Source: Myxococcales bacterium (lineage in GTDB: Bacteria > Myxococcota > Polyangia > Nannocystales > Nannocystaceae). From it: a stretch of 64,000 nt of DNA. Where the stretch lies: positions 74,202 to 138,201 of the forward strand of contig JAEUJW010000095.1 in the NCBI GenBank assembly GCA_016793465.1, written 5' to 3'. Position numbers and translations under genes: made by a program. Position 1 is the stretch's first letter; each line of letters begins with the position of its first letter. Shown piece after piece: positions 5,501 through 43,818 of this stretch. The notes beneath the pieces are model-generated. The model did no database searches. It was not told the origin of the DNA and worked only from the letters and a program-made list of their open reading frames with translations.

Positions 5501-6099
5501 CCGAGGTGCGACTGGCCCGGCCGCCCGAGCCCGACGCCGAGGTCGAGCTGTGGACCGGCAAGATCCTCGAGCGCCTCGGCAAGCCGCAGGAGGCCGCCAA
5601 CGCCTACCGCAAGGCGCGTCAGCTCGACCCCTCGCTGTACGAGGCCGCGTTCCTGCACGGGCGCGCGCTGCTCGCCGGGGGCGAGGCCCGCGAGGCGATC
5701 ACCGAGCTCACCGCGGTGACCGCCGCGACCGACGCCTTCCCCGCGGCCTTCCTCGCGCTCGGCCTGGCCCACCGCGAGCGCGGCCAGTACGACCTGGCGA
5801 TCAACCAGTTCATCCGCGCCGCCCTGCTCGACCCCTCGACCGGCGAGGCCGCGTACTGGGCCGGCCGCACGCGCGTCGAGCTCGGCCGCCCCGCCGACGC
5901 GCTCTACCACCTCCGCCGCGCCGTGCTCGCCCCCAGCCCCGGCCCCTGGCTGGCCGACGCCCACCTCTGGCTGGCGCGAGCTCTGATTAAACAGAACCTG
6001 CGCGACGAGGCCGCCGGCGCCTACGCCAATTATTTAAAGATCGCCGGGCCCAGGGCGGCCGCCCGCGCCGAGGCCGAGAAGCTCACGCGCGGCCGCTGA
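2545..6099 (+). CDS. Zinc-ribbon, single-pass membrane TPR protein
   Basis: A 1184-residue protein built of four parts. Residues 1-30 form a small zinc ribbon (C4, C7, C21, C24). Residues 30-405 are low-complexity, Pro/Ala/Ser/Glu-rich and probably disordered, and include seven copies of a ten-residue repeat. One membrane segment lies at about 408-427. The rest, from about 470 to the end, is a long series of tetratricopeptide-like helical hairpins. By topology the ribbon and linker should be cytoplasmic and the TPR superhelix periplasmic; this is inference. Zinc-ribbon-plus-linker-plus-TPR proteins are frequent in myxobacteria and act as scaffolds, but no specific role can be given. Codons near the 3' end switch locally to A/T-ending forms (5985-5992 and 6028-6041). 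Confidence 0.85.
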   Translation: MGQCRKCAYPLDQGEQLGQRCPNCGAPTREPEPEGPAILGSVFGKPAGEPGLSDSSSSAARASDSGSRLSESGAQPRRIFEVPGFKTPVTQPAAFFKAPPGKPVKLESKPGKPPEARAAPTVAPTVAGGPSPTGPGEAASAPATTGAASATGATPRPSSASVLPRGTAGRGPNESSHVAPGPSESSHVTPGPSEPSRVAPVPNESSRVAPVPNESSRVAPGPNESSRVAPGPNESSRVALTLAGPRSPGDSSSRGSSATSSGSRPIRSDPNEDDLPAPVVSTRPFTIPKIVGQQRLTVPPVAAGTHELDSSSELDLPQILELSNLDSRIDTVVASARPPGSARPDDVEVDLEDLHHEAAEAPPPAPTPPPASPTPAPEQPRAAPRTPPPRPRALPVPPPPPPREPSLLARAGVVVLAVACVGVWWSQFTREAEAGPPTVTRTLSLETWSEVHAFMQARRLDTDRTADYLKALAEAEAQRDPIGQAEAALCMHLRYGPDPVRSSAAEVWRRQAAPEDPRQARVAGLAALANDDVAEAERLLVGEDARSRLYRALAAQRRGDHTTAANEASAALALRPTDVAAGLVAVTSAIAARRTAPLDPLRAAAAAHSDHPLYREALVRALLDRGRLAEARTLADRIDRVNGASEAHQARALALKAEVAAAGGEISQAVWLFEKAGQLAPQDLPTQLARVRLLLSHGDRLRVQQELTQLARQSPDDPGVLALQAEAALKFENHAAATRAIDRLAAVDDERARVARLRGELNLKQGNVEAAIAAYRAAVDAQPDDVAALLALAGLRTRGSEGRAALAALDAARQTLQADPSAAQRPKLRALALGHANLLAETGRKDQAIGVLDAALAIDPDDNAAQLRRGELAIEQGRVAAGRADLAAVAERTGGYPGLVESLGRLYLRDNELVLLASLVQPHLADPRASDEVLVMGGLLRLAQGEVDAAEALIDRVLLRSGSVWEARLAKARVLHARGRPADALAEVRLARPPEPDAEVELWTGKILERLGKPQEAANAYRKARQLDPSLYEAAFLHGRALLAGGEAREAITELTAVTAATDAFPAAFLALGLAHRERGQYDLAINQFIRAALLDPSTGEAAYWAGRTRVELGRPADALYHLRRAVLAPSPGPWLADAHLWLARALIKQNLRDEAAGAYANYLKIAGPRAAARAEAEKLTRGR
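3055..3264 (+). repeat. Seven tandem 30-bp repeats inside the TPR gene
   Basis: Seven in-frame copies of a 30-bp unit encode variants of the decapeptide G-P-N-E-S-S-R-V-A-P (units at 3055, 3085, 3115, 3145, 3175, 3205 and 3235). The middle copies are almost identical and the outer ones have drifted (His for Arg, Ser for Asn), the usual pattern of repeat expansion by slippage. It lies in the disordered linker, so copy number could vary without breaking the frame. Confidence 0.9.
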
Positions 6100-6100
6100 C

Positions 6101-6116
6101 CTGTCCTCGCGGACAG
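6101..6116. terminator. Short hairpin between convergent genes
   Basis: CTGTCC (6101-6106) pairs with GGACAG (6111-6116) around a TCGC loop, between the convergent TPR and FAD genes. A second, imperfect CCTGTCCTGAGGACCAGG palindrome follows. The stem is the same word as the TTCG-capped hairpins at 35,971-36,117, so it may be a recurring terminator or REP-like element. No T-tract follows. Confidence 0.4.
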
Positions 6117-7744: not shown

Positions 7745-9702
7745 CTGGCCTCGACTTTCTTGACCACCGTCTTCGGGTCGCTGCCCGGCAGCCCGCTCGC
7801 CAGCCCGACGCCGTTCTTATTAAAAGGCACGGGGCGGCCGTCGGCGAGCGCCTGCATGACCCCGCCGACGATCTGCCCGATCGCCAGCATGCCCTCGAGG
7901 TTGATCTTGTCGACGGTGTCGCCGGGTCGGTGGTAGTCCGCGTGCGTCCCTGTGAAGAAGAACAGCACCGGGATGTCCTTGCGGTAGAAGCTCGCGTGGT
8001 CGCTGCGGGTCGCGGTCGAGCCCTCGTAGAGCACCTGCAGCCCGGCCGGCCCGATCTCGTCGAGCAGCGGCAGCCACGCCTCGCTCGACCCGAGCCCGCC
8101 GATCGCCAGCCCCTTGGGCCCGAGGCGGCCGACCATGTCGAGGTTGACCATCGCCACCACCTTGCCGAGCTCGAACGGCGGCCTCTCGACCAGCGCCTTC
8201 GAGCCGAGGATGCCGAGCTCCTCGCCCGCGAAGTGGGTGAACACCAGGGTCCGCCGCGGCGCCCGCCCGCTCTGTTTGAACAGGCGCGCCAGCTCGAGCA
8301 CCATCGCCGTGCCGCTGGCGTTGTCGTCGGCGCCGTTGCAGATGGCGTCGACCTTGTCGCCCTCGCGCAGCTCGCCGCACTCGTCGTCGGGGGCCTCGCC
8401 GATGTGGTCGTAGTGCGCGCCGAGCACGACGAGCTCCCCGGCCCTGTCGCTGCCCGGCAGCGTGGCGATCACGTTGGGCACCATCACCGACTCCGGCTCG
8501 AGCGCCACCGCCAGCGCGACCTCCGGCCCGCCGGAGATCGGCCCCGACAGCGGCTTCTTGTGCCGGTCGAGCTCGGCCTGCAGCTGCGAGATCTTCTTTC
8601 CCGTGCCCGACAGCAGCCTGTCGGCGGCCTTCCAGCGGACCTGGACCACCGGCACCGGTAGGGGGTCCAAAGCCCCACCCCGGCCTGGCTTGTCGGGCTT
8701 CAGCTTCGGCAGCTCGTCGGCCTTGCGGCTGGCCTCGTCGACGAAGCTCCGCGGGCCGCGGACGGCGACCACCCCGACCGCGCCGGCCTTGGCCAGGCGC
8801 TCCACCTTGGAGCGCAGCGAGCCCTCGGAGAACCCGAACCGCGGCCCCGGCAGCTTCGCCGCCGACTTCATCAGGGCCCCGCCGATCGTCATCGGGTTGT
8901 ACTCGACGGTCAGCGGGTCCTCGGGCAGCGGCCACACCTCCTTCAGGGACTCGGCCGGCATGAACGACCCGACCCGCGCGAGCAGCTCGGCCCGGGCCTT
9001 CGCGTGCAGCGCCTTCAACTTGGCGACATCCTTGGCCTCCTTCAGGGGCTTGGCCGCCTCGGCGAAGGCCTTCGCGTCGGCCTGGATCTTCCCGAACAGG
9101 GCCATCGGGTCGGGCCGGCCCGGGGCCTCGAGCAGGACCAGCGCGACCTTCCCCTTGAGGTCGACGCCCGCGAGGTCGTCGTACTCCGGGGGAGTGCCCT
9201 CCTCGGACTCGGACCTCGCGGCGTAGCCGACGAACACCAGCCCGCCGCGGACCTCGCCGGACGCGCTCTGCGGCACCGCGGCGAACTCCTCGGCGGACGC
9301 CGGTCTGGCGGCCTTGCCGCGGTGCACGTGCAGGCTCGGCGGCTGCGTCGCCCGGGCCCCGGTGACGAGCGGGAAGTCGACGGTGAACGCCGCTCCCGCC
9401 GGCGTGAGGCCGAGCTCGGCGTAGCGCCCGACGAGGTGCTCGGCGGCCCGGCGCAGCTCGGGCGACAGGGTGTGACGCCCGTGCATCTCGTCGCTGGCGA
9501 GGAACGTGATGTCGGCCGTCATGCGCGCGCCGTCGAGGCTCGGCAGCGCGGCCGGCGGCGGCGCCGGCCGCGGCGGTTCGGCGGGCCTCGACGGCTCCGG
9601 CGGACGCGGACCAGGACCGCGGTCGCATGCGAGATCTGTGGCGAGGACCACGGCGAGAGCGAGCCACCGCGGACGCGAACCGATGCGGAACATGGCGTGC
9701 AT
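7741..9702 (-). CDS. M28-family metallopeptidase, secreted, with PA-like insert
   Basis: A 653-residue secreted zinc aminopeptidase of family M28. The expected two-zinc ligands appear in order: His in GAHYDHIG, the bridging Asp in NGADDNASG, catalytic Glu-Glu in GEELG, Asp in NLDMVGR and His in RSDHASFY. A long insertion between the N-terminus and the catalytic half has the feel of a PA domain plus an extra Lys/Ala-rich helical segment. The N-terminus is a signal peptide ending in T-D-L-A-C, so it may be a lipoprotein although the lipobox is atypical. ATG at 9702 has GAGGT five bases upstream; ATG at 9693 is worse placed. It overlaps the FAD gene by four bases. Confidence 0.87.
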   Translation of the reverse strand: MHAMFRIGSRPRWLALAVVLATDLACDRGPGPRPPEPSRPAEPPRPAPPPAALPSLDGARMTADITFLASDEMHGRHTLSPELRRAAEHLVGRYAELGLTPAGAAFTVDFPLVTGARATQPPSLHVHRGKAARPASAEEFAAVPQSASGEVRGGLVFVGYAARSESEEGTPPEYDDLAGVDLKGKVALVLLEAPGRPDPMALFGKIQADAKAFAEAAKPLKEAKDVAKLKALHAKARAELLARVGSFMPAESLKEVWPLPEDPLTVEYNPMTIGGALMKSAAKLPGPRFGFSEGSLRSKVERLAKAGAVGVVAVRGPRSFVDEASRKADELPKLKPDKPGRGGALDPLPVPVVQVRWKAADRLLSGTGKKISQLQAELDRHKKPLSGPISGGPEVALAVALEPESVMVPNVIATLPGSDRAGELVVLGAHYDHIGEAPDDECGELREGDKVDAICNGADDNASGTAMVLELARLFKQSGRAPRRTLVFTHFAGEELGILGSKALVERPPFELGKVVAMVNLDMVGRLGPKGLAIGGLGSSEAWLPLLDEIGPAGLQVLYEGSTATRSDHASFYRKDIPVLFFFTGTHADYHRPGDTVDKINLEGMLAIGQIVGGVMQALADGRPVPFNKNGVGLASGLPGSDPKTVVKKVEAR

Positions 9703-12324: not shown

Positions 12325-12380
12325 GCCACCCGGGCCCGCCCGGGCCCACCGACCTTCGCCGTGGATCACGGCGACCCACC

Positions 12381-12412
12381 GCGCCGGCCCCAAGCCGGCG
12401 CGGCCGGCTTTT
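12381..12412 (+). terminator. Rho-independent terminator of the VWA gene
   Basis: GCGCCGGC (12381-12388) pairs perfectly with GCCGGCGC (12394-12401) around CCCAA, with a further GGCCGGC and then TTTT. It lies 57 bases after the stop of the VWA gene and merges into the A/T palindrome described separately. Confidence 0.8.
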
Positions 12413-12442
12413 AATAATTGGTCATCGATTCAATTATTAAAA
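12409..12442. repeat. Perfect A/T-rich inverted repeat, 12-bp arms
   Basis: TTTTAATAATTG (12409-12420) and CAATTATTAAAA (12431-12442) are exact reverse complements separated by GTCATCGATT. In sequence this GC-rich, an exact A/T palindrome is striking. It could be part of the terminator, an operator for the helicase gene downstream, or a binding site for a nucleoid protein. The same TTTAATAATT core recurs inside genes at 16718-16727 and 40392-40401. Confidence 0.85.
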
Positions 12443-12558
12443 ATTATCTGACGCGGCGTACGTGGCTGCGTCGGGGTCTGGGGGACCCGCGGAGTTCGTC
12501 GCATTTTCGCGGCGAGCGTACTGGTCGGCTGCGATCGCTTTTGCTATGCACCCCGATC

Positions 12559-16599: not shown

Positions 16600-17766
16600 T
16601 CAGCTCGCCGCGGACTGCAGGTGGCGCACGGAGGCCTCCGCGAGCCACTGGCCGACCTCGGAGCACTTGGCCGCCTTCGCCTCGCCGACGAGGTCGTAGG
16701 TGAGCGGGTTGCCGATCTTTAATAATTCGACGACGGCGGCCTCGATGGCCCTGGCGCCGCGATTGAGGCGGGCGTCCTGCTTGCGGTCGCCGAGCCACTC
16801 GAGGCCCTCCTTGACGGAGAGGATCATGGCGATCGGGTTGACCTTGTCCTTGCCGGCGTGCTTCGGGGCCGAGCCGTGGATCGGCTCGAACATGCCGTGG
16901 TCCTTGCCGACGTTGGCGCCGACGGCCATGCCCATGCCGCCCTGCAGGACCGACGCGAGGTCGGTGAGGATGTCGCCGAACATGTTGGTGGTGACGACCA
17001 CGTCGTAGTACTCGGGCTGGCCGATGAGCCACTGCGTGAACGCGTCGACGATCGCCGTCTCGCGCTCGATGCCCGGGTACTGCTCGCCGATCTCGTGGAA
17101 CACCTGGGTGAAGAACTGACAGCCGTGCAGCACGTTGTCCTTGACGATGGCCGTCACGCGCAGCTTGCCGTCCTTGGGGGCGCCCTTGTTGCGGCGCTTG
17201 CACAGCTCGAACGCGTGACGGATGACCTGCTCGCTGGCGCGGCGGGTGATCACGCGGGTGTCGACCGCGACCTCGGTGCGGCCGCCGGGCGAGAGCTTGC
17301 CGCCGGTGGGCGAGTAGAGCCCCTCGGTGTTCTCGCGGATCATCACCATGTCGACCTGGCCGGGCTGCCAGACCAGCTTGTTCTGGCCGTGGATGCGGTG
17401 CTGCACGCCCTCGTAGAGCTTCACCGGGCGCACGTTGGCGTAGAGGTTGAGGCGGGTGCGGTTGCCCAGCACCGGCGAGAACCCGGCCATCTTGCCGTCC
17501 TTCATCAGCACCGGGCCCGCGCCGGTGGGCGACGGCCAGCCGACCGCGCCGAGCAGGATCAGGTCGGCCGCGTCGCAGCGCGCTTCGGCGCCCTCGGGCC
17601 AGTCGCGGTCGCCGTGCTCGAGGTAGTACTGACCACCGCACGGGATGTCGTCGATGCTCCACGCCACGTCCAGCGCGCGGGAGATCGCATGCAGCACGCG
17701 CAGGCCCTCCCGCATCACCTCCGGGCCCGTACCGTCGCCGCCGAGGGTCACCAGCTTGTACGTCAT
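16600..17766 (-). CDS. Isocitrate/isopropylmalate-type beta-decarboxylating dehydrogenase
   Basis: A 388-residue NAD(P)-dependent metal-requiring dehydrogenase of the isopropylmalate/isocitrate family, which oxidises a 2-hydroxy acid and removes CO2. It begins with the nucleotide-side motif [10 protein letters not shown], has the substrate-loop sequence [12 protein letters not shown], the metal-binding [20 protein letters not shown] block, and [18 protein letters not shown] near the end. Specificity (3-isopropylmalate, isocitrate, homoisocitrate or tartrate) cannot be settled from these motifs. No leuC or leuD is near, which argues against naming it leuB. An A/T islet at 16716-16729 encodes E-L-L-K-I with rare codons. 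Confidence 0.85.
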
Positions 17767-17824: not shown

Positions 17825-20497
17825 GTGAAAGCTCACCCGCTCGCGACAGAGTCGGGTTATACATACGGACTCGTCGTGCAGCTCGTCGCCTCGCCGCTGT
17901 GGTTGCTGTGGCTGCTCGCACCGGAGCCCGGGGTCGCGGAGGCGGGGACGAGCGCGCCGGGCGAGACGACCGGAGCCGAGCCGAAGGCCGAGGGCCCGGC
18001 GCTGCCGGCTGGCGCGTTGCCCTCGACCCCGGGCGTGCCGGGTGTGGTCGACATGGCGGACTCGCCGGAGTGGGTGGCGCCGTCGCGGACGCGCAGGCGC
18101 AAGCCGATCGTCGGCGCGGCGCGGGTCGAGCGCATGTACATGAAGGCGCACCGCGTCGACGACAGGGACATCACGGTCGACGGTCACCTCCACGAGGCGG
18201 CGTGGAAGACGGTGCCGCTGCTGCCGGAGCTGGTCCAGACCGAGCCGCGTTACGGGTTTCATCCCACGCACCCGACCGACGTGCGCGTCGCCTACGGGCA
18301 GCGGGGCATCTACGTGTCGTTCGTGTGCCACGGCGACCCCAAGAAGGTGCGGCCGGGGGTGTTCCGCAAGGACCAGATCGGGCCGAGCGACCTGGTGTGG
18401 CTCGAGATCGACCCGAACAACAACGACACCAACGGGTTCGTGTTCGTGACCAACCCGTCGGGCTCGCAGGAGGACGCGCAGCTGTTCCGCGACGACAGCG
18501 AGGAGCTGCTGTGGGACGGCGTGTGGCAGACGGCCGGCAAGATCACCCCGCAGGGCTGGACCTCGGAGATCTTCGTGCCGTGGTCGACGATCCGCTTCGA
18601 GGCCCGCGACGAGTACGACTTCGGCATCAACGTCGGCCGGTGGGTCAACGAGGACGGCGAGCTCAACATCCTCTCGCCGGCGCCGCAGGGCCTGCCGGGC
18701 CGCATCTCGTGGGCGCTCGACTACCGCGGGGTCAAGGGCATCGAGCCCGGCCTCAACCTCGAGCTGCGCCCGTTCGTCTCGTCGCGCATCGCCGCCCGCA
18801 GGCCCGACGACACGCTCGACCTGTCGACGCCGTTTCTCCCCAACGGCGGCTTCGACGTCAAGTACGGCCTGCGCGGCAACCTGACCCTCGACGTCACCGT
18901 GAACCCCGACTTCGGCCAGGCCGAGGTCGACCCCGCGGTGCTCAACCTCGGGCCGTTCGAGGTGTTCTTCCCCGAGCGCCGGCAGTTCTTCCTCGAGTCG
19001 AAGGAGCTGTTCGAGACCCGCTTCCAGCTGTTCTACTCGCGGCGCGTCGGCAACAACCCGCGGCCGGCGCGGGCCGACCTGACGACCCGCACGGACAGGA
19101 ACGGCAACGAGGAGCGCGGCGACCTCGTGCAGCTCGACCCGCTGACGCGCATCTTCGGGGCGCTGCGGCTCACCGGGCAGGCGGCGAAGTCGTGGAGCGT
19201 GGGCGCGTTGACGGCCACGACCGGCGCGACCTACGGCACCGAGGAGTTCTCGGACGGCACGCGCCACCGGGTGACGGTCGACCCGACGAGCCAGTACTCG
19301 GTGCTGCGCGTGCGCAAGGAGTTCGACAGCCAGACCAGCGTCGGCACCATCGCCACCGGGGTGATCCGCGGCGGCGGCGAGCGCAGCGCGTTCACCGGCG
19401 GCTTCGACTACCGCATCCGCTTCCTCGACCGCTGGCGCCACTCGGCCCAGGTCATCGGCACCTACGACGGCCAGCGCGGGGGCGCCGGCGCCGGCTTCGA
19501 CCTGCGGCGCAGCGGCAAGAACTTCTCGATGGTGACCGACCTCGACATGCTGACGCCGCACGCGAACTTCAACGACCTGGGGTTCATGCGGCTCAACAAC
19601 TACATCGACGGGCACACCACGCTCAGCGTGTACAACGCCCAGCCGGTCGGGCGCGTGCGCCGGCTGTCGGCCGCGGTCGACACGCGGGTGGCCTCGAGCT
19701 TCCAGGGCGACCTGCTGCAGAAGCAGCTGTTCGGCGAGTTCGGGCTGACGACCCTCAGCCTGTGGGAGTTCGCGGCCAACGCCGGCGGCCACCTGCCGCA
19801 GTACGACCTCTACGAGACGCGCGGGGGCATCCCCTACGAGGTGCCGCTGCACTGGTGGACCGGCTTCGACGTGACCTCGCCGGACAACCGCCGGGTCGTC
19901 GGCGCCTTTAATAGTGCTTACGGCGAGCAGAACGGGCGACCCGGCCCCGACATCGCGCTCGAGCTGCGGCTGCGGCCGATCAACCGGCTCGAGCTGACGC
20001 TGCGCGGCGACTTCAACGCGACTTTCAACCGCCCGCGCTGGACCACCACCAACGCGTTCGGCGAGCCGGTGTTCGGACGCGCCAAGGTCATCTCGTACAC
20101 CGGCGTGCTGCGCGGGACCCTCGGCATCCTGCCCAACCTGACCCTGCAGACCTTCAACCAGCTGTACTACCTGTCGGCGCACCACGACGAGTTCTTCATC
20201 CTCACCGCGCCCAACGTGCTGCTGCCGACCGACCCGACCCCGTACTACGGCCAGGTCGACCAGGGCCTGACGAGCTTCATCTCCAACTCGATCCTGCGCT
20301 GGGAGTACCTGCCGGGCAGCTTCCTGTTCGTGGTCTACACCCACCGCACGAGCTTCACCGAGGGCGGCGACAGCACGGCCCCCGGCGGCGGCCCGATCTT
20401 CTTCCGCCCGGGCTCGGGCTTCTCCAACCTGCTGGCCTATCGCGCGCAGGACGAGGACATCATCTTTATTAAATTGCAGCACCTGTTCGGGCTGTGA
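17825..20497 (+). CDS. DUF5916-like outer-membrane beta-barrel with CBM9-like N-domain
   Basis: An 890-residue exported protein. After a probable signal peptide and Pro/Ala-rich linker (to about residue 100) comes a domain starting ITVDGHLHEAAWKTVPLLPE, the hallmark opening of CBM9-like domains that precede DUF5916 barrels. It is followed by the DUF5916 signature VNPDFGQAEVDPAVLNL...FFPERRQFFLE. The rest is an alternating aromatic/polar pattern of amphipathic strands ending in QHLFGL, as expected for an outer-membrane barrel. The physiological role of the family is unknown. The start GTG at 17825 leaves little room for a promoter after the divergent dehydrogenase (ATG at 17766). A/T islets at 19905-19920 and 20465-20475. 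Confidence 0.82.
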   Translation: MKAHPLATESGYTYGLVVQLVASPLWLLWLLAPEPGVAEAGTSAPGETTGAEPKAEGPALPAGALPSTPGVPGVVDMADSPEWVAPSRTRRRKPIVGAARVERMYMKAHRVDDRDITVDGHLHEAAWKTVPLLPELVQTEPRYGFHPTHPTDVRVAYGQRGIYVSFVCHGDPKKVRPGVFRKDQIGPSDLVWLEIDPNNNDTNGFVFVTNPSGSQEDAQLFRDDSEELLWDGVWQTAGKITPQGWTSEIFVPWSTIRFEARDEYDFGINVGRWVNEDGELNILSPAPQGLPGRISWALDYRGVKGIEPGLNLELRPFVSSRIAARRPDDTLDLSTPFLPNGGFDVKYGLRGNLTLDVTVNPDFGQAEVDPAVLNLGPFEVFFPERRQFFLESKELFETRFQLFYSRRVGNNPRPARADLTTRTDRNGNEERGDLVQLDPLTRIFGALRLTGQAAKSWSVGALTATTGATYGTEEFSDGTRHRVTVDPTSQYSVLRVRKEFDSQTSVGTIATGVIRGGGERSAFTGGFDYRIRFLDRWRHSAQVIGTYDGQRGGAGAGFDLRRSGKNFSMVTDLDMLTPHANFNDLGFMRLNNYIDGHTTLSVYNAQPVGRVRRLSAAVDTRVASSFQGDLLQKQLFGEFGLTTLSLWEFAANAGGHLPQYDLYETRGGIPYEVPLHWWTGFDVTSPDNRRVVGAFNSAYGEQNGRPGPDIALELRLRPINRLELTLRGDFNATFNRPRWTTTNAFGEPVFGRAKVISYTGVLRGTLGILPNLTLQTFNQLYYLSAHHDEFFILTAPNVLLPTDPTPYYGQVDQGLTSFISNSILRWEYLPGSFLFVVYTHRTSFTEGGDSTAPGGGPIFFRPGSGFSNLLAYRAQDEDIIFIKLQHLFGL

Positions 20498-33354: not shown

Positions 33355-34902
33355 ATGCGCTGGTTCGTCCGCGGCGACATCGACGGGTTCTTCGGCCTCG
33401 CGGTCGACAACCTCGTGCAGCTCCTGTTGATCGACGCGCTGTGTCGGTTCGTGCTCGGGTTCCCGGAGGCGCTGCTCCACGGCGCGGTGCTGCCGGGGGC
33501 GGCGGTGTCGCTGCTGGTCGGCAATTTTTATTACGCGTGGCAGGCCCGCGAGGTCGGGCGGAGGCTGGGGCGCGACGACCTGTGCGCCCTGCCGTACGGC
33601 ATCAACACGGTGTCGGTGTTCGCACATGTCTTTTTGGTCATGTTGCCGGCGAAGCTGGCGGCCGAGGCCGCGGGCGCGGCGGACCCGGCGCGGGTGGCCT
33701 GGCAGGCGGGGCTGGTGGCGTGCTTCGGGTCGGGGGCGATCGAGCTGCTCGGTGCGTTCGTCGCCGAGAGGGTGCGCCGGGCGACGCCGCGGGCGGCGCT
33801 GCTGTCGACGCTGGCCGGGGTGGCGCTGGGCTTCATCTCGCTGGGGTTCCTGTTTCGCAGCTTCGCGCGGCCGATCGTCGGGCTGACGACGCTGGCGGTG
33901 CTGCTGCTGGTCTACTTCGGGCGGGTCAAGTTCCGCGGGGGCCTGCCGGGCGGGCTGGTGGCGGTGCTGCTGGGCACGCTGCTGGCGTGGCTCACGGGCG
34001 TCGCGCCGGTCGGGGCGATGCCGTCGGCGGGGCAAGGGTTCAATTTGCCGGTGCCGGTGATCGGCGAGCTGGTGGCGGCGCTCAGCGGCGAGCACATGTG
34101 GACGTACCTGTCGGTGATCGTGCCGATGGGAATCTTTAATATCGTCGGGTCGCTGCAGAACATCGAGGCGGCGGAGGCGGCGGGGGACCCGTATCCGACG
34201 CGGCCGTCGCTGATCGTCAACGGGCTCGGGTCGATCGCGGCGGCGACGTTCGGCTCGTGCTTCCCGACCACGATCTACATCGGCCACCCCGGGTGGAAGG
34301 CGATGGGGGCGCGGGCGGGCTACTCGATCTTAAATGGAGTGTTCGCCACGGCGGTGTGCCTGACGGGCACGCTGGCGTATATCGCGTGGGCGGTGCCGAT
34401 CGAGGCGGGCATGGCGATCGTGCTGTGGATCGGGGTGGTGATCTCGGCGCAGGCGTTTCAGGTGACGCCGCGAGAGCACGCGCCGGCGGTGGTGATCGGG
34501 ATGCTGCCGGGGGTGGCCGCGTGGGGGGCGTTGATGGCGAAGGCGGGGCTGCGGGCGGGCGGGACGGCGTTCGATGAGAAGTTGGTGCCGGTGTTCCAGG
34601 GCGCGGACGTGTGGATCGACGGGGCCTTCGCGCTCGAGCAGGGGTTTATTTTTACGGCGATGTTGCTGTCGGCGGCGACGGTGGCGGTCATCGAGCGCAA
34701 GTTCATGGCGGCGGCCGGCTGGTGCGCCGTGGCGGCGCTGCTGTCGGCGCTGGGGCTGATGCACAGCTACGGGTGGACGCCGGCCGACACGGTGCTGGCG
34801 CTCACGCCGGCGTGGCCGTGGGCCGTCGGCTACGCGGCGATGGCGGGGGTGTTCGTGCTGGCGCCGCTGCTGACGACGCGTGACGCGGGGCCCGGGCACT
34901 GA
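33355..34902 (+). CDS. NCS2-like purine/xanthine-type permease
   Basis: A 515-residue integral membrane protein with about 12-14 hydrophobic helices. It has the look of the nucleobase-cation symporter-2/AzgA fold: a substrate-side LPYGINTVSVFAHVF segment and, in the second half, SLQNIEAAEAAGDPYPTRPSLIVNGLGSIAAATFGSCFPTT, where family members have the Q/N-E-x-G-x-x-x region followed by the reentrant strand. Transport of a purine or similar heterocycle is a reasonable guess. Divergent from metF. Five A/T-rich islets (33523, 34135, 34328, 34645 and a weaker one at 34042) fall in this one gene, more than in any other. Confidence 0.75.
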   Translation: MRWFVRGDIDGFFGLAVDNLVQLLLIDALCRFVLGFPEALLHGAVLPGAAVSLLVGNFYYAWQAREVGRRLGRDDLCALPYGINTVSVFAHVFLVMLPAKLAAEAAGAADPARVAWQAGLVACFGSGAIELLGAFVAERVRRATPRAALLSTLAGVALGFISLGFLFRSFARPIVGLTTLAVLLLVYFGRVKFRGGLPGGLVAVLLGTLLAWLTGVAPVGAMPSAGQGFNLPVPVIGELVAALSGEHMWTYLSVIVPMGIFNIVGSLQNIEAAEAAGDPYPTRPSLIVNGLGSIAAATFGSCFPTTIYIGHPGWKAMGARAGYSILNGVFATAVCLTGTLAYIAWAVPIEAGMAIVLWIGVVISAQAFQVTPREHAPAVVIGMLPGVAAWGALMAKAGLRAGGTAFDEKLVPVFQGADVWIDGAFALEQGFIFTAMLLSAATVAVIERKFMAAAGWCAVAALLSALGLMHSYGWTPADTVLALTPAWPWAVGYAAMAGVFVLAPLLTTRDAGPGH

Positions 34903-34952
34903 GCGGAGGATTTTTTCTTGCGCAGCGAGGGCGCGGCGGGAAAACTCGCGGC

Positions 34953-35915
34953 ATGCGCCGATCCCTCCGCGAAATCATGTCGGTCGTGCTGGCTGCGAGC
35001 CTGGTGGCGACGCCGGGCGAGGTGCGGGCGCAGGACGCGTCGTGGCCGGCCGCGGCGACGCAGGCCGACGCCGAGGGCAAGGCGGCGTACTCGAGCGGAG
35101 ACTACGCCGGGGCGCTGGCGGCGTTTCAGCGGGCGTACGCGGCGATGCCGGACCCGGTGGCCCAGCGCAGGGGGCGCGAGGCGGTCCTGGGGTCGCTGCG
35201 CAGCACGTACACGCGGCTGTACGAGGCGTCGCACGAGCGCGCGCAGCTGTGCGCGTGGCGGGCGACGCTGGTGAGCCACACCGACGCGCTGCGGGCCCGG
35301 CTGGGGGCGTCGGCGACGCAGGAGACGATGGGGCTCGACGGGCTGCGCGCGCAGGTCGACGCCGACGTGGCGCGCGACTTCCCGAACGACCCGCGCTGCG
35401 TGCCGCCGTCGGCGACGCCGGTCGCGGGGGCGCCGACGTCTTCGCCGGCACCGTTGACGACGACGACGCCGGTGTATACGCGGCCGCCGGCGGTGCAGAC
35501 GGTGCCGCCGCTGCCGCCGAGGCAGGAGCCGGCGCCGGTGGGGTCGACGGATCGCGAGCAGAAGATGTGGCGGGCCGGAGGGATCTCGCTGGGCGTGGGG
35601 ATCCTCGGGCTGCTCGGGATGGGGGCGGGGCTGGTGCTCGCGGACAACCGCGAGAAGGCGATCGTCGACCTCGAGAAGATGCTGGCCGACAAGAACCTGA
35701 AGCCGACGAACGACGACATCGAGCGCGCGGACCGGTTCAGGCGGCAGGCGACGATCGCCTCGGGCGCGGCGATCGGCCTGGGGATCGGCGGCGGGGTTTT
35801 ATTAATTACGGGCATCGCGCTGATGGCCGCGGGGCGCAACGGGCGGCGCGCCAATCAAGCGAGCGTGGCGCCGACGGTCGGGGTGTGGGGGCTCGCGGTC
35901 CGCGGGCGGTTCTAG
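34953..35915 (+). CDS. Exported protein with two C-terminal membrane segments (family A, copy 2)
   Basis: A 320-residue protein with the same plan as the one at 30782. It has a signal peptide (cut after VRAQ, about residue 26), a TPR-like helical part (AEGKAAYSSGDYAGALAAFQRAYAAMPD), a Pro/Thr linker around 150-195, and two glycine-rich membrane segments (about 213-230 and 268-290) enclosing a charged loop; it ends G-L-A-V-R-G-R-F. Function not recognised. The ATG at 34953 follows the permease by 50 bases. The codons for V-L-L-I-T at 35797-35808 are gtt-tta-tta-att, an A/T islet in otherwise GC-ending codons. Confidence 0.7.
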   Translation: MRRSLREIMSVVLAASLVATPGEVRAQDASWPAAATQADAEGKAAYSSGDYAGALAAFQRAYAAMPDPVAQRRGREAVLGSLRSTYTRLYEASHERAQLCAWRATLVSHTDALRARLGASATQETMGLDGLRAQVDADVARDFPNDPRCVPPSATPVAGAPTSSPAPLTTTTPVYTRPPAVQTVPPLPPRQEPAPVGSTDREQKMWRAGGISLGVGILGLLGMGAGLVLADNREKAIVDLEKMLADKNLKPTNDDIERADRFRRQATIASGAAIGLGIGGGVLLITGIALMAAGRNGRRANQASVAPTVGVWGLAVRGRF

Positions 35916-35931
35916 CGGCGCCGACGGGTCT

Positions 35932-36130: not shown

Positions 36131-37716
36131 TCGAGCACGCAGCGGAAGCCGACGTCGGCGCGGCGGTCCTTGACGTTGCGCAGGCCGCGGGCGGTCACGC
36201 GGACCTCGGCGTCGGTGGTGGCGGTGTAGCTGCCGCCGCGGACCACGCGGTTGTCGGGGTCGGGCTCGCCCGAGCCCCAGCCGCCGTCGTCGTGGCTGCC
36301 GGACTCGTCGCGGTAGGTCAGCTCGGGGCTGGCGGTCCACTCCCACACGTTGCCGGCGAGGTCGAACACGCGGCCGCGGCCGGCGCCGCGGGCGTGGCTG
36401 GCGGTGCGCGCGGTGGCGGCGTCGCCGTCGCTGGTCGAGAACAGGCGCGGCGGCTCGGGGCCGGACTTCGGCGTGGGGGCGCACTCGCGGCCGCAGGCGT
36501 TGACGAGGTCGGGGCCGGGCTCGGCCTCGCCCCACGGGTAGCTGCGCTCCTGGTCGCCGCCGCGGGCGGCCCACTCCCACTCGTGTTCGCTGGGCAGGCG
36601 CTTGCCCTGGGCGCGGCAGTAGGTCTCGGCCTGGTGCCAGGCGACGCAGTTGACGGGGTGGCGACTGCGGGCGGCGCGGTCGCCGTTGCAGCGCTCGGAC
36701 TCGCGGGTGCGCTGCTCCTCGGTGAGCCTGGCCGACTGCACGGTGGAAGGAGCGGCGGAGCAGGGGCCGCCCTGGGCGCAGTCGGCGTACTCGCCGACGG
36801 TGACCTCGCGCTGGTCGATGCAGAAGTCGCGGACGTCGACGAGGCCGCCGGACGAGGCGCCTTCGGGGCGCGTGCCGCCGCGGTGGACGCTGGGACGGAA
36901 GCGGCCGCCCTCGACGAGCGTGGTGCCGCGGGGGCAGGGCCTCGCCTGCCGGCGCGCGGACACTTCTTCGGGCTCGCGGATGGGCTCGACCTCGAGGCGG
37001 AGCAGCGCGCCGCAGCCGTCGGGCGGGGTGGAGGAGTCGCCGCCGGAGCAGCGGCGCGGGTCGCCGTCGCTGCGCTCGAACCCTCGCTCGGCGGACGAGC
37101 CGGCGCCGGCCTGGGCCACGCCGAAGCCGCCGCCGGCGGAGATCTCCGCACCTGCCTCGGAGGACAGGCGGAACGCGCCCACGGTGACGGCGGAGATCAC
37201 GTGGGTCGCGCGCTCGCAGTCGCCTTGCAGCTCGCGGCGATCGACGCGGGCGCGGCCGGCGGCCTCGTAGTGGCCGACCACGGTCATGGCCAGGGACAGC
37301 GCGCCGTGGCGGGCGAGCTCCCCCTCGAGCTGGGCCGCGCCGAGGGGGATCTTCGCGTAGAGCTCGTCGGCGCTGCGGAACACCTGGTCGTCGCGCTTGG
37401 CCCCCACGCCGGTGTACTCGTAGCGGCCCGTCACCGTGCAGCGGCGCAGCAGCTCCATCTCGCAGCTCTCGTAGCGGACCGCGACCAGCCCCGCGTCGGC
37501 GCGCTTAATGATTAAGCCTTCGAGCAGGCCGCGATCCGAGGAGGGCCACTCGATGATGAGCGGGCGCGCGTGGCTCTTCATGACGCCGCAGCGGGCCTGG
37601 CCCTGGGTGTCGATCGACGGGGTCTGGGCGAGGCCCGAGGCGAGGTTGCGGCCGCGGCAGGCCGCGCCGACGGCGACGAGCGCGAGGACCAGGCAGAGCC
37701 GCGGAGCGGGTGACAC
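36124..37716 (-). CDS. Lipoprotein with formylglycine-generating-enzyme (FGE/SUMF1) domain
   Basis: A 530-residue lipoprotein. Starting at GTG 37716, the signal peptide ends V-G-A-A-C20, a good lipobox. The first 270 residues are a family-unspecific domain. From about 275 the FGE-sulfatase domain begins (C-P-R-G-T-T-L-V-E-G-G-R-F) and shows DFCIDQREVTVGEYADC, HPVNCVAWHQAETYC, RLPSEHEWEWAARGG, FDLAGNVWEWT, RVVRGGSY and G-F-R-C-V at the end. Many bacterial FGE-fold proteins are not sulfatase-maturases but bind ligands or act beside protein kinases. The paired catalytic Cys of true FGEs cannot be assigned here, so enzymatic activity is doubtful. The 3' end has been copied in tandem downstream. 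Confidence 0.82.
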   Translation of the reverse strand: MSPAPRLCLVLALVAVGAACRGRNLASGLAQTPSIDTQGQARCGVMKSHARPLIIEWPSSDRGLLEGLIIKRADAGLVAVRYESCEMELLRRCTVTGRYEYTGVGAKRDDQVFRSADELYAKIPLGAAQLEGELARHGALSLAMTVVGHYEAAGRARVDRRELQGDCERATHVISAVTVGAFRLSSEAGAEISAGGGFGVAQAGAGSSAERGFERSDGDPRRCSGGDSSTPPDGCGALLRLEVEPIREPEEVSARRQARPCPRGTTLVEGGRFRPSVHRGGTRPEGASSGGLVDVRDFCIDQREVTVGEYADCAQGGPCSAAPSTVQSARLTEEQRTRESERCNGDRAARSRHPVNCVAWHQAETYCRAQGKRLPSEHEWEWAARGGDQERSYPWGEAEPGPDLVNACGRECAPTPKSGPEPPRLFSTSDGDAATARTASHARGAGRGRVFDLAGNVWEWTASPELTYRDESGSHDDGGWGSGEPDPDNRVVRGGSYTATTDAEVRVTARGLRNVKDRRADVGFRCVLDP

Positions 37717-37771
37717 GGGGGCAGGGTATCGCAGTTTCGGCCGGCGGGGTCGCGAGGCCGCACGGCGAGGC

Positions 37772-38398: not shown

Positions 38399-38502
38399 GC
38401 GGCGGGACGTCAAGGACTGGATGGTTAGCACACGTCGGGTCGCCTGTGCGACGCCGCGGCTTGCGAGCCCTGCGCGGGCTCCGTGATACTGTCCGCCGCC
38501 CC

Positions 38503-41091
38503 GTGCTGCTGCTCGCCCTCGCCGAGACCCCCAACTACACCCGGGTGCCGCCGGAGCTGACGGCGCACGTCGGCTGGTTGTCGCTGGCCGCGCTGGTGTG
38601 CCTGCTGCTGTGGCTGGCCGCGCGGATGGAGTGGATCCGCCGCAGCTTCCTCGCGCTCGAGGACCCGCGCATGTTCGCGGTCATGCGCATCGGCATGGCG
38701 CTGATGACGATCCAGTGCTTCTGGAACCTGAAGCCGTACTGGCGGATGTTGTGGAGCGACGAGGGTCTATTTAATGCCGACGACGCCCGCTCGCGCATGG
38801 GCGGCTCGGCGCTGTCGGGCTGGACGCCGGAGGACGGCTTCCTCGACAACTGGGCGGTCTTCAAATACTTCTGGGGCAAGCACTCGTGGTTCTTCATCGA
38901 CTCGGCGCCCGACGCGGTCGAGACGTTCATGTACGTGTTCTTCGGGGTGCTGCTGCTGTACGCGTTCGGGGTGCTGAGCCGCGTCACCGGGGTGATCGCG
39001 TGGCTGATGGTCAGCAGCGTGTACAACCACAACGCGCTGTACCTCGAGGGCACCGACACGGTGTACCGCACGTTCTGGTTCATCCTGCTGTTCTGCAGGA
39101 CCGGGGCGGCGTGGAGCGTCGACAACGTGGTGCGCTGCTGGTGGCTGCGCCGGCGCGGCGAGCTGCAGGAGCCGGGCGCGCCGGCCCGGCCGGGGCTGCG
39201 GCCGGTCTACAGGTCGGTCCCCAGCTGGCCGCGCTACCTGATGATGGGCCAGCTCGTGGCCATCTACACCAGCACGGGCATGGTCAAGACCGGCAACGTG
39301 TGGGCGGCCGGCGACGCGCTGTACTACTCGCTGAACCTCGACCACTTCTACCGCTTCGAGGGCTGGACGCAGGTGGTCTCGGCGGCGCTCGGGACCACGC
39401 TGTTCCGCGTGATGACGTGGGTGACCCTGTGGTGGGAGTGCCTGTTTAGCGTCGCCGCGCTCGGGATGATTGTGAAATTTCACCTCGAGCAGCGCGACCG
39501 CCCGTGGTACCTCGCGCAGGGGCGCTGGCGGACGTGGCTCGCGCGCGGGGCCCTGCTCGGGCTCTACGGGCTGCTGTACCGCGTCGTCACGCTCGCGTAC
39601 CCGTACTGCATCGAGCTGCCGAAGGACGCCAGCGCCGAGCTCACCGAGAAGCTGGTGAGCGAGGGGCTGCGCAACGTCGACGTCATGATGCTCGCGGTGA
39701 TCCCGCTGCTGGTGACGCTGTGGTTCGTGCTCGGGCGCTGGCCGCTGAAGATGGGGCTGAGGCTGCGGGGGAGGCGGCGCGAGGCTGTCGTGGATCAGCA
39801 CTGGCTGCGCAAGTGGCTGCTCGGGCGCAGGGTGTGGCTCGGCCTCGGGCTGACGTTCCACGGGTTTCTGATCCTGTTCATGAACATCGGCATGTTCCCC
39901 TTCATCATGCTGATGACCTACGCCGCGTGGCTGCGCGGCGAGGAGTTCGCGGCGGCGCTGCGCTGGCTGGTCGGGCTGGTGTGGCGCTCGCCGCTCGGCA
40001 AGCGGCTGCCGGCGGCCTGGCTGGCGCGGGCCGACGCGTGGACGGCCCCGGCCGAGGCGCCCGAGGCGGCGCCGCGGCGCGGGCGGCCGCTGCCCGACTG
40101 GCTGGTGCTGCTGCTCGGGCTGATCGGCGTCGGGCTCGGGGCGGCGTGGATCGCCGGCAAGACGTGGGGCGTGAGGTACGAGCTCGGCGACTACGTGTAC
40201 GCGTGGCTCGGGCTGTGCGTGCTCGTCGGGCTCGGGTTTCGCCTGTGGAGGACCACGCCGGAGCGGCACCTCGCGCGCATGGGCGGGGGGCCGGCGCTGG
40301 CGTACGGTCCGGCGGGGCGGGCGATCGCGCTGGGGTTCATGACCAGCCACGCGCTGGTGGTCGGGCTCGGGCTCGGGCCCAACTACACCATCTTTAATAA
40401 TTGGCGCGGGCCGGTGCGCGGGCTGTTCGGCAGCTGGGCGACGGTCACGGGGACCTCGCAGAGCTGGAAGATGTTCGCGCCCAACCCGCCGCGCGCCAAC
40501 GTGTTCATGAAGACCGTGGTCGTGCTGCCGAACGGCGAGCGCTGGAACATCGGCAACAACGCCTACGACTGGCGGCCGTGGCCGTGGATCTGGAACGACC
40601 GCATCCGCAAGATGCACCGGCGCATGGTCAGCAAGGGGAAGTGGTACCTGCGCTACTGGGCCCACTTCTACTGCCGCGAGTGGTACCTCGAGACCGGCCA
40701 GCGCGCGGCCGCGGTCGAGGTGCACAAGCTCGTCACGAAGATCCCCTCGCCCGACCAGGTGGCAAAGAAGGGCTGGTACGAGCCGACCAAGCTCAAGCTG
40801 ACCGACGAGATCGTCGAGACCCACGACTGCCCGCGCGGCGGCGACCTGCCGCCGTTCATGAAGCTGCGCTACGGCCACGAGCTGACCCACGAGGACGAGG
40901 CGGCGCTCGCCGACGCGGCCGAACGCGAGCGGCGCAGCTCCGAGACCAAGCGGAGGAGCTGGGCCAACCGCCGCGACTGGGGCGGCAGCGGCCCGCAGCC
41001 GACGGCGCCGACGACCCTGCCCGGTCAGGCCGCGCGCGCCGGCGCCGACGAGGAAGAACCGCCCGCGAAGGACGGCGGGGACGGCGAATAG
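38503..41091 (+). CDS. HTTM-domain membrane protein fused to a 'MFAPNP' domain
   Basis: A protein of about 862 residues. The N-terminal half is an HTTM (vitamin-K-dependent gamma-carboxylase-like) multi-helix domain: DPRMFAVMRIGMALMTIQCFW, YHHNALYLEG-type loop (NHNALYLEGTDTVYR), GQLVAIYTSTGMVKTGNVW and SLNLDHFYRFEGW. It continues through further membrane helices to a last one near 630 and then a soluble domain beginning Q-S-W-K-M-F-A-P-N-P-P (about residue 655), with a basic, Glu/Pro-rich tail. The gene at 41956 matches its first half and the gene at 41109 its second, so this is a fusion of both. GTG 38503 is chosen because V-L-L-L-A-L-A-E-T-P aligns with the start of the 41956 protein; GTG 38446 is also open. 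Substrate unknown. Confidence 0.75.
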   Translation: MLLLALAETPNYTRVPPELTAHVGWLSLAALVCLLLWLAARMEWIRRSFLALEDPRMFAVMRIGMALMTIQCFWNLKPYWRMLWSDEGLFNADDARSRMGGSALSGWTPEDGFLDNWAVFKYFWGKHSWFFIDSAPDAVETFMYVFFGVLLLYAFGVLSRVTGVIAWLMVSSVYNHNALYLEGTDTVYRTFWFILLFCRTGAAWSVDNVVRCWWLRRRGELQEPGAPARPGLRPVYRSVPSWPRYLMMGQLVAIYTSTGMVKTGNVWAAGDALYYSLNLDHFYRFEGWTQVVSAALGTTLFRVMTWVTLWWECLFSVAALGMIVKFHLEQRDRPWYLAQGRWRTWLARGALLGLYGLLYRVVTLAYPYCIELPKDASAELTEKLVSEGLRNVDVMMLAVIPLLVTLWFVLGRWPLKMGLRLRGRRREAVVDQHWLRKWLLGRRVWLGLGLTFHGFLILFMNIGMFPFIMLMTYAAWLRGEEFAAALRWLVGLVWRSPLGKRLPAAWLARADAWTAPAEAPEAAPRRGRPLPDWLVLLLGLIGVGLGAAWIAGKTWGVRYELGDYVYAWLGLCVLVGLGFRLWRTTPERHLARMGGGPALAYGPAGRAIALGFMTSHALVVGLGLGPNYTIFNNWRGPVRGLFGSWATVTGTSQSWKMFAPNPPRANVFMKTVVVLPNGERWNIGNNAYDWRPWPWIWNDRIRKMHRRMVSKGKWYLRYWAHFYCREWYLETGQRAAAVEVHKLVTKIPSPDQVAKKGWYEPTKLKLTDEIVETHDCPRGGDLPPFMKLRYGHELTHEDEAALADAAERERRSSETKRRSWANRRDWGGSGPQPTAPTTLPGQAARAGADEEEPPAKDGGDGE

Positions 41092-41108
41092 CCCCGAGGA
41101 CATGTCCC

Positions 41109-41954: not shown

Positions 41955-41955
41955 C

Positions 41956-43818
41956 ATGCTCGGCGCGCTCTCCGGCTCCCTGCTCGCGCTGGCCGACAAG
42001 CCGCCGCCGGTCGACGTCTCGGCGCACCTCGACGTCGCGACGGTCGTGCTGTGGGCGGTGCTCGGGCTCGCGCTGCTGTTCTTCGCGGTGCGCCCCGAGC
42101 TGTGGCGGCGGCTGTGGCTCGACCGCGTCGACCCGCGCCCGGCGGGCCTGCTGCGCATCGTGTTCGGCGTGGTCGTGCTGTGGACGATGGTCGACCTGAT
42201 CCCGCTCGGTCGGTTCCTGTTCACCGATGAGGGGCTGTGGCTGCCGAAGATGGCCCGCCGCAACTACAGCAGCGACTTTCGCACGATCTGGGACCCCGAG
42301 CACGGGTTCGAGGGCTGGTTCGACGTCCTGCGGGCGTTCTGGCACCGCTTCTCGCTGTTCCACATCCGCGCCGACCCGCCGTTCGTGTGGACGATCTACG
42401 GCGTGACGATCGTGTCGCTGGTCATGATGATCCTCGGGATCAAGACCCGCATCACGACCTTCCTCAGCTGGTTCCTCGTCAACACGATCTACATCTACAG
42501 CCCGATCTTCTACAGCGGCGGCGACACGGTCGTGCGCGTGTACCTGTTCCTCGGGCTGTTCCTGCAGTGGGGTCAGGCGTACTCGCTCGACGCGTGGTGG
42601 CGCCGCAGGCGGGCCGTGCTGCGCGGGGCCGCGGAGATACCGCCGCTGAGGCCGATCCCGGCGTGGCCGCTGCGGCTGATGATGCTGCAGCTGGCGATCA
42701 TCTACTGCGCGACCGGGGCGCTGAAGAGCGGGCACACCTGGCTCGACGGCACGGCCCTGTTCTTCGCGCTGAACCTCGACCACTTCTATCGCCACCCGGC
42801 GCAGATCCAGCTCGTCACGTTCCTGCAGATGATCTGGGTCCTGCCGATCGCGACGTGGATCACGCGCATCTGGGAGACGGCGTTCCCGGTGGCGCTGGTC
42901 GGCGCGGCGGTCAACGCGTTCGAGCGCGATAAGCGGGCCGGGGTGTGGCCGCAGGCGCCGCTGTGGCGCCGCTCGCTGTCATACGCGTGCCTGGTCGCGG
43001 TGTTCGGCGGGCTGGCGTACATCGCGGCGCTGGCCGCCTGGTACTTCTACGACCCGGCGCTCGGGCCGTGGAAAATTAATAAATACGGGGCGGCGATCCT
43101 GTTCGGGGCGCTCGGCGTGGCGATCCCCGTGGTCGCGCTCGCGGCGTACCTGGCGCTGCGGCGCTGGCGTCCGCGGGTCCACCGGTTCGTGCTGACGTGG
43201 CTGCTCGGCAAGCGGCTGTGGCTGGGGATCGGGCTCGTCATGCACGTGGGCATCGACCTGCTGATGAACGTCGGCACGTTCGTGCAGGTGATGATCGCGG
43301 TGTACCTCGCGTGGCTGTCGGGGGCGGAGCTCGAGGCGTTCTGGCGCTACATCGTGACGGCGCCGCAGGCCCCGGGCGAGGGCACGCGGCCGCTCCGCAA
43401 GCCGCGCTGGCGGGCCGTGCTGCTGGCGCCGATCGACCGCCTGCGCTACCGCGCCGCGCCGGCGCCGTACGTGGTGCACCACCACCCGGGCGAGCACGCG
43501 GTGCGTCGCGCGGCGCTGCTGCGCATGTGGGACCTCAGCGGGCGCCTGGCGTTCACCGCCGACGAAGCGGTGAGGCCGGGCGAGCTGTGCGTGGTGGTTC
43601 CGCCGCGACCGCGGCTCGGCGAGCGCCTGGCCGCCCGGCTGAGCCCCGGCTGGCTCGTGCCGCGCCTGCCGGCGCCCGCGGGGGCGAGGCTCGTCGGGGC
43701 GAGGGCCGGGCGCGCGCTGGTCCGACTGCTCCCGGGCTTCTGGTGGATGTACCCGTGGTGCCTCGTGCCCGGTCTGTCGCGTCTGTGCGGCCTGTGGGTC
43801 GCCCGCACGTTCAAATGA
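41956..43818 (+). CDS. HTTM-domain (vitamin-K-carboxylase-like) membrane protein
   Basis: A 620-residue polytopic membrane protein. It begins with a membrane segment, then VDPRPAGLLRIVFGVVVLWTMVDL, PIFYSGGDTVVRVYLFLGLFLQWGQAYSLD, LQLAIIYCATGALKSGHTWLDGTALFFALNLDHFYRHP and a distal VMHVGIDLLMNVGTFVQVMIAVYLAW block, the usual HTTM order. The C-terminal 150 residues are soluble. HTTM domains are the membrane part of gamma-glutamyl carboxylases, which are vitamin-K-dependent in animals; in bacteria their chemistry is mostly unknown. It starts one base after the stop of the previous gene. An A/T islet at 43072-43085 encodes K-I-N-K-Y. Confidence 0.8.
   Translation: MLGALSGSLLALADKPPPVDVSAHLDVATVVLWAVLGLALLFFAVRPELWRRLWLDRVDPRPAGLLRIVFGVVVLWTMVDLIPLGRFLFTDEGLWLPKMARRNYSSDFRTIWDPEHGFEGWFDVLRAFWHRFSLFHIRADPPFVWTIYGVTIVSLVMMILGIKTRITTFLSWFLVNTIYIYSPIFYSGGDTVVRVYLFLGLFLQWGQAYSLDAWWRRRRAVLRGAAEIPPLRPIPAWPLRLMMLQLAIIYCATGALKSGHTWLDGTALFFALNLDHFYRHPAQIQLVTFLQMIWVLPIATWITRIWETAFPVALVGAAVNAFERDKRAGVWPQAPLWRRSLSYACLVAVFGGLAYIAALAAWYFYDPALGPWKINKYGAAILFGALGVAIPVVALAAYLALRRWRPRVHRFVLTWLLGKRLWLGIGLVMHVGIDLLMNVGTFVQVMIAVYLAWLSGAELEAFWRYIVTAPQAPGEGTRPLRKPRWRAVLLAPIDRLRYRAAPAPYVVHHHPGEHAVRRAALLRMWDLSGRLAFTADEAVRPGELCVVVPPRPRLGERLAARLSPGWLVPRLPAPAGARLVGARAGRALVRLLPGFWWMYPWCLVPGLSRLCGLWVARTFK

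Follow-up and report, generated by a model that had tools for sequence, protein, structure and literature searches.

The DNA analysed here is a 64-kb window from a bacterium of the Nannocystaceae (Myxococcales), and the subject is a set of short runs composed wholly of A and T, here called islets, that recur, over the 44 kb studied, at a density of about one per 2.7 kb. The window is GC rich (70.7% over all 64 kb, close to what follows from the A+T content of about 28% that a first-pass annotation had judged by eye, and 72.3% in the first 44 kb). Gene models came from a simple caller based on third-position GC (GC3) plus inspection, with approximate starts and possibly some genes overlooked, and islet counts cover this window rather than the organism's whole genome, with runs counted over positions 1-46000. 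These positions hold 19 A/T runs of seven or more bases (7+), 16 of 8+ and 11 of 10+, against 4.2, 0.9 and 0.04 after single-base shuffling, 1.3, 0.3 and 0 under a first-order Markov model and 0.06, 0.02 and 0 under a second-order model; with 16 runs of 8+ where the first-order model gives 0.3, the islets are real and far above chance, as the annotation had claimed. A third-order model gave 17.7, 9.8 and 3.3 runs, respectively, and is no valid control because it reproduces the runs on which it was trained. Synonymous shuffling, which preserves each protein and its codon counts and was the control that the annotation had proposed, left the excess standing: 14 coding runs of 8+ were observed in 25 curated genes compared with 0.28 on average and at most 3 in 1,000 shuffles, and a cruder first gene set held 15 compared with 1.3 (shuffled within genes) or 0.35 (pooled).

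Along the window, the islet AATTATTTAAA (N-Y-L-K, 6028..6038) lies in gene 2545-6099(+), 61 bp short of its end, this gene being convergent with 6149-7744(-), and TTATTAAAA (7817..7825, coding strand TTTTAATAA, F-N-K) lies 76 bp before the end of an M28-peptidase gene, 7741-10020(-). The islet TTTAATAATT at 16718..16727 (coding strand GAA TTA TTA AAG, E-L-L-K) lies in 16600-17766(-), 118 bp short of the end of this gene, whose convergent partner is 15065-16426(+), and gene 17825-20497(+) carries both TTTAATA (F-N-S, 19907..19913) and TTTATTAAATT (F-I-K-L, 20465..20475), the latter 22 bp before the gene end. An alkyl-DHAP-synthase-like gene, 24762-26471(+), contains TATTAAAA (L-L-K, 25048..25055), and AATTTAAAT (N-L-N) follows at 25545..25553. 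About 95 bp before the end (28761) of a short-chain dehydrogenase gene on the forward strand, convergent with 28769-30445(-), is TTTATTAAAT (F-I-K, 28657..28666); TTTAATAT (F-N-I) is at 34135..34142; and TTTTATTAATTA (V-L-L-I, 35797..35808) lies in 34953-35915(+), 107 bp short of the end of this gene, which converges with an FGE-sulfatase-type gene, 36124-37908(-). Gene 38446-41091(+) holds TATTTAAT (L-F-N, 38768..38775) and a further copy of TTTAATAATT (F-N-N, 40393..40402; four relatives have F-A-N, F-S-Q or F-S-S there), and AAAATTAATAAATA (K-I-N-K, 43072..43085) lies in 41956-43818(+), which aligns poorly to relatives at this point. Thirteen of the 14 places listed in the first-pass annotation hold an A/T run of 7+; the exception, 37504..37516 inside the FGE-sulfatase-type gene, has no long run and is instead a near-palindrome, CTTAATGATTAAG, a weak relative of the islets, and position 5985, with which the annotation opened its range, reads TGATTAA and holds no A/T run. 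Beyond that list are two coding runs that lack TTAA, AATTTTTATTA (N-F-Y-Y, 33523..33533) and TTTATTTTTA (F-I-F, 34645..34654), two 7-base runs at 32455 and 34910, and two intergenic runs, TTTTAATAATT (12409..12419) and AATTATTAAAAATTAT (12432..12447), which form an inverted pair (TTTTAATAATTG / CAATTATTAAAA) with arms 10 bp apart. Just past this pair lies a helicase-like gene (12541-15000) whose best match is to the HelD/HelR RNA-polymerase recycling motors, below the curated cut-off.

The run at 12409 begins 5 bases past a strong hairpin (stems 12379-12388 and 12394-12403, -23.7 kcal/mol) and looks like the terminator tail of gene 10051-12324(+), which raises the alternative that islets are the T-tracts of intrinsic terminators, bidirectional where genes converge. 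Two of the seven terminator-like sites in 24900-44000 likewise adjoin islets, at 33523 and 34135, and in Nannocystis TTTAA/TTAAA (overlaps counted twice) reaches 1.67 per kb in the 60 bp past convergent stops compared with 0.12 past co-directional stops, in some cases between palindromes. This Nannocystis signal comes from only nine separate places, however, and hairpins flanking the 19 runs of 7+ are at background (mean percentile 0.53 over 38 flanks, 4 of them below 0.1), as are those at 156 Nannocystis flanks (P = 0.72). Terminator-like sites show no excess (3 versus 4.7 and 7 versus 5.0 expected), and islets inside genes would truncate the message. A GC hairpin directly before a T-tract is thus found at 12409 and arguably at 33523 and 34135, but not for the islets as a set, and we regard termination as an improbable account of them. 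Convergent gaps of two relatives (loci L168 and L183 of G001 and G002) also contain recurrent palindromes, GCATG(T/C)CC..GGGCATG(C/T)C, beside TTTAA, resembling a repetitive extragenic palindromic (REP) family.

What recurs in the islets is a DNA word rather than A/T content alone or protein sequence. TTAA is present in 14 of the 16 runs of 8+, and in the 25 genes it occurs 13 times within runs of 7+ where codon shuffles predict 0.2, with no excess outside long runs (4 versus 4.9 expected). Codons touching islets include 7 of 11 TTA, 12 of 22 AAT and 6 of 11 ATT. Among the amino-acid strings of these genes that could be written as a long A/T run (capable strings), those able to contain TTAA are spelled in A/T in 13 of 93 cases and the others in 2 of 153 (P = 9e-5). 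An expectation-maximization motif fit to 18 hand-picked sites gave TTTTAATAAT, and the motif occurs on either strand and in different reading frames. A/T-ending codons of residues that can be written wholly in A/T are 21.8 times as frequent as expected at a distance of one codon from each other, 11 times at two and 4 times at three, with no excess at five; the decay by five codons implies a unit of about 10 bp. For other residues, by contrast, enrichment is 5.0-fold at distance 1 and still 2.5- to 3.7-fold at distances 2-8, a broad regional pattern. The codon shuffles, the codon clustering and the TTAA-capability test (weaker once stratified by length) together support the first-pass proposal to the extent that the DNA word, and not the protein, is what recurs.

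The same clustering bears on a codon-level alternative, in which rare-codon clusters slow ribosomes or hidden stops catch frameshifts. Each TTAA within a gene necessarily brings an out-of-frame TAA, and several alternative-frame open reading frames end in islets; yet out-of-frame stops do not exceed the codon-shuffled expectation (TGA 276 versus 298, TAG 2 versus 16, TAA 22 versus 19), a short TTAA would suffice but shows no excess, and rare codons of other residues cluster regionally rather than in the sharp manner of the all-A/T residues. The translational pause sites suggested by the first-pass annotation consequently fit the codon pattern poorly and find no support, and we consider any codon-level effect very unlikely. 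Out-of-frame TAA outside islets numbers only 6 compared with 19 expected, and antisense TAA is raised (39 versus 26); in the window genes at 1-44000 the depletion of out-of-frame TAG and non-islet TAA may perhaps reflect avoidance of CTAG and of isolated TAA.

Islets are also placed non-randomly with respect to gene ends. Within 120 bp of the end of a gene, 6 of 9 capable strings are used as islets, compared with 7 of 84 elsewhere (P = 1.5e-4, unstratified), a significant tendency that agrees with the annotation's remark that several islets lie close to stop codons. Counted by junction, an islet falls within 130 bp at 4 of 6 convergent junctions, and at the remaining gene ends in 2 of 13 cases (one-sided P = 0.046). 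The core of the word, TTTAATAA, behaves similarly in relatives: among 60 of its 119 sites examined in G006 and G004, 36 lie inside called genes, and 9 of these are within 120 bp of the stop compared with 7.5% of capable strings (P = 0.001; G006 alone, 6 of 18, P = 0.001). Over 80 loci of G002, G003, G004 and G006, the neighbour is a convergent gene for 10 of 12 gene-end TTTAATAA sites (P = 0.007 against a baseline of 44%). Of 17 intergenic sites with a called gene on both sides, 11 are in convergent gaps, which account for 22% of gap bases (P = 2e-4). These counts omit 3 gene-end and 15 intergenic sites without a called neighbour. An alternative is that islets are internal promoters, which the annotation had also suggested, or operator sites for neighbouring genes. 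The A/T words look like a -10 box, and the islets at 7817 and 20465 precede co-directional genes. Sigma-70-like sites (-35/-10 hexamers spaced 16-18 bp), the only promoter type considered, are nonetheless at chance (1 versus 0.4 and 1 versus 0.6 expected), neither being at an islet, and gene-end islets mostly face convergent genes; promoter or operator function is thus left without support and we think it highly doubtful.

The word is over-represented in the Nannocystis clade as a whole. Seven genomes of this clade (six titled Nannocystis, plus G022, assigned by 88-97% median protein identity) contain 309 copies of TTTAATAA and 64 of the reversed control, with an excess in each genome, whereas the other 22 genomes of the family combine to 74 versus 177 (G029 alone, 3 versus 2). 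Coding runs of 8+ are in excess too: each of six Nannocystis genomes has 4-11 in 131-152 kb of coding sequence, compared with 0.45-0.80 after shuffling, although these islets are weaker, mostly use other A/T words than the window's and in some cases lie in doubtful gene models. Outside Nannocystis, 18 loci with a GC content of at least 69%, about 352 kb in total, hold 3 runs of 8+. The string AATTATTAAA occurs 0-6 times per genome in eight relatives compared with 4 times in 46 kb of the window; of 377 genomes sampled from the phylum 307 lack it, and where copies are numerous the reversed string is in most cases just as frequent. Another member of the Myxococcota, G133, has 32 copies of AATTATTAAA and 4 of the reversed control in 3.5 Mb.

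Individual positions are less stable than the word. The closest relative compared is the Nannocystis metagenome-assembled genome G006, the top match among the genomes compared for the window's alkyl-DHAP-synthase-like protein (71%; five other Nannocystis records, 63-65%; up to 89% to other proteins, relatives at 79-89% identity being, as far as we know, confined to metagenome-type sources). The relatives compared are distant (67-89% identity per gene to G006). None of the 10 alignable window islets is an A/T run in G006, contrary to the conservation at orthologous positions that the annotation had asked for; this comparison leaves out 7817 and 43072, which lack a useful alignment, as well as 6028, 28657 and 35797, and the islet at 7817 is not an A/T run in three Nannocystis species. 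N-L-N at 25545 is AAT-TTA-AAT in the window and AAC-TTG-AAC in G006, and its residues are identical in six relatives, spelled there as AAC CTC/TTG AAC or AAT. Transposon footprints or insertions were rejected as a source of islets because this islet aligns without gaps to the six relatives and has identical residues in them. Residue identity at islets is near background (28 of 35 versus 74% for G006; 59-62% versus 67-68% for three others), and islet residues differ from G006 as I for V, N for A, N for T and K for A, the direction being unpolarised. Within Nannocystis, 32 of 46 runs were testable (the other 14 could not be aligned or lacked an orthologue), and for 17 of these 32 one or more of the other species carry a run of 7+ at the corresponding position, while for 15 no other species does. 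Runs are present at 35 of the 125 orthologous places, 20 of the 35 coming from a single Y-K-M site. The Nannocystis islets are thus partly shared rather than mostly private, and their conservation is partial. An alternative explanation is a mutational process, either neighbour-dependent change of G/C to A/T or error-prone patches, whose clusters survive where they are synonymous, and the one-species clusters of adjacent synonymous changes in Nannocystis, the 15 islets unique to one genome and the near-background amino-acid identity at window islets all agree with it. Mutation alone does not, however, predict TTAA in long runs, a preference for gene ends or convergent genes, or the near-absence of islets in the 18 GC-rich loci of other genera, and we consider this explanation unlikely.

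We tentatively favour the reading that each islet represents a short and degenerate recognition word, made up wholly of A and T, for a putative DNA-binding protein acting at the ends of transcription units. The word core would be TTTAATAA or its complement, usually with TTAA mid-word. Since the genes lie nearly end to end, the sites would have to sit in coding DNA and so fall where strings of F, N, I, K, L and Y permit an A/T spelling, with a preference for such strings in a gene's final 120 bp. The protein might hold or relax overwound DNA between convergent genes or block read-through there, and the rest of the genome would be expected to resemble this window. Occurrence on both strands, the lean towards gene ends and convergent genes, the lack of a promoter signal and the set-wide lack of hairpins (three islets excepted) fit a word recognised by a protein, and a nucleoid or segregation protein, as the first-pass annotation proposed, is a possible reader of the putative sites.

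Several observations weigh against this reading. The TTAA-capability test weakens to an odds ratio of 5.7 (P = 0.03) when stratified by string length, capable strings being longer, and the 10-mer TTTAATAATT or its complement is common to only 4 of 16 runs of 8+; two of the 16 lack TTAA. Most coding runs of 7+ in the window (9 of 15) are far from any gene end, and the convergent excess vanishes when counted by gene end (4 of 12 convergent versus 2 of 13 other, P = 0.28). The gene-end preference is 3 of 18 in G004 alone (P = 0.15) and, within 250 bp of the stop, 13 of 36 in G006 and G004 combined (P = 0.06). Several convergent sites lie 300-1000 bp from their called neighbour, leaving room for overlooked genes, 4 of the 17 intergenic sites abut or run into the end of a gene (one or more being tandem TAA stops) and some sites in sister species are one shared site, so that the convergence P values are optimistic. 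The window's islets are absent from G006, and the density of TTTAATAA is 1.7-6.3 per Mb in the clade compared with 159 per Mb in the window, a gap large enough that its role need not be the same in both. Because of the weaker stratified test, the non-significant convergent excess by gene ends and the partial sharing of Nannocystis islets, we rated the protein-recognition reading lower, and the mutational alternative higher, than we otherwise would have.

Known chromosomal systems offer partial parallels. H-NS and Lsr2 are nucleoid proteins that prefer A/T, as the putative reader of the islets would, and such proteins bind whatever A/T-rich DNA exists; we know of none whose sites are written into synonymous codons. 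REP elements and bacterial interspersed mosaic elements (BIMEs) of enterobacteria are repeated words at 3′ gene ends and in convergent gaps, a placement that islets share, but they are long palindromes in intergenic DNA, whereas islets are about 10 bp, not palindromic and mostly coding. GapR, a nucleoid protein favouring overtwisted and, to a modest degree, A/T-rich DNA, accumulates between convergent genes in yeast made to express it (PMC8360656), which shows that binding of this kind exists; for the islet word, enrichment between convergent genes is seen in the clade genomes, and in the window depends on whether junctions or gene ends are counted. CdbA of Myxococcus xanthus is a genome-wide myxobacterial nucleoid protein with hundreds of sites, but its consensus is a GC-rich direct repeat (PMC7156744), and islets were rejected as CdbA sites for this reason.

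The main rival is that the islets serve natural DNA uptake as a self-recognition signal, in the manner of the DNA uptake sequence (DUS) of Neisseria or the uptake signal sequence (USS) of Haemophilus and other Pasteurellaceae, spreading by biased uptake and recombination wherever proteins tolerate it. Islets share with these a short, lineage-specific word in many copies on both strands, often intragenic (here mostly coding, and weaker in sister genomes), and over-representation relative to composition and codon controls (in sister genomes, relative to the reversed word). A gene-terminus bias, not a strict requirement, is reported for Pasteurellaceae uptake words (PMC2346458) and is found for islets, although not significantly in G004 alone; and the inverted pair next to the hairpin (12379-12442) recalls the close inverted copies in which uptake words often make terminator hairpins (PMC1852404). 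Such drive would also account for partial turnover of positions. Moreover, the GC-rich 14 kb of the foreign-looking region at 44-64 kb contains no islets (Poisson P = 0.008). On the other hand, known uptake words are highly conserved (PMC1852404) and contain G/C, whereas islets are degenerate, consist solely of A/T within DNA that is about 72% GC, and are about 25-90 times sparser in sister genomes; the core TTTAATAA occurs in 7 places, and no single highly conserved word of 9-12 bp of the DUS/USS type emerges. The 44-64 kb test concerns one region, and the inverted pair is a single case whose arms form the hairpin's tail and not its stem. Density, lineage-specific strength and partial turnover fit the uptake and structural readings about equally, and degeneracy fits uptake worse; we consider an uptake signal unlikely but not negligible.

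Taken more broadly, it is a serious possibility, if one still short of an even chance, that a strongly selected or self-spreading all-A/T word dictates synonymous codons, and perhaps some residues, in this genome. Such a word would be either an uptake dialect beyond those of Neisseriaceae and Pasteurellaceae or a nucleoid address code marking where transcription units end, and its density here is about 25-90 times that in the Nannocystis clade, where it is already over-represented. A search of one open-access library, covering titles and the openings of abstracts, on Nannocystis, myxobacterial nucleoid proteins, uptake words and A/T words in GC-rich genes found no account of this phenomenon, and we know of no comparable word in this phylum. 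If the interpretation holds, a demand at the level of DNA would override codon choice across the chromosome, the rise of a genomic word could be traced from a weak form in the Nannocystis clade to the strong form here, and cultured Nannocystis species would make binding and transformation tests feasible.

The region at 44000-64000 looks acquired. It follows a tRNA-Ser gene (43873-43959), of which no attachment-site copy was found in the window (exact words of at least 14 bases), its GC content falls to 53-61% at 46-50 and 52-54 kb, and an IstB/IS21-type ATPase gene lies at 50005-50838. Its single TTAA-bearing run of 7+, at 48245, is in a low-GC stretch. The lowest-GC stretch holds an open reading frame of 547 amino acids (47925-49568) without a Pfam or NCBIfam match. 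Three near-identical 34-bp repeats, GGCGCTTAAGAGATTTCAGGCGGGAATTTTCGCG, at 53021-53054, 53060-53093 and 53245-53278, two of them 39 bp apart, are possibly a transposon end or protein-binding repeats, and seven imperfect 34-bp direct repeats (61941-62250) lie inside the open reading frame 61466-63817(-).

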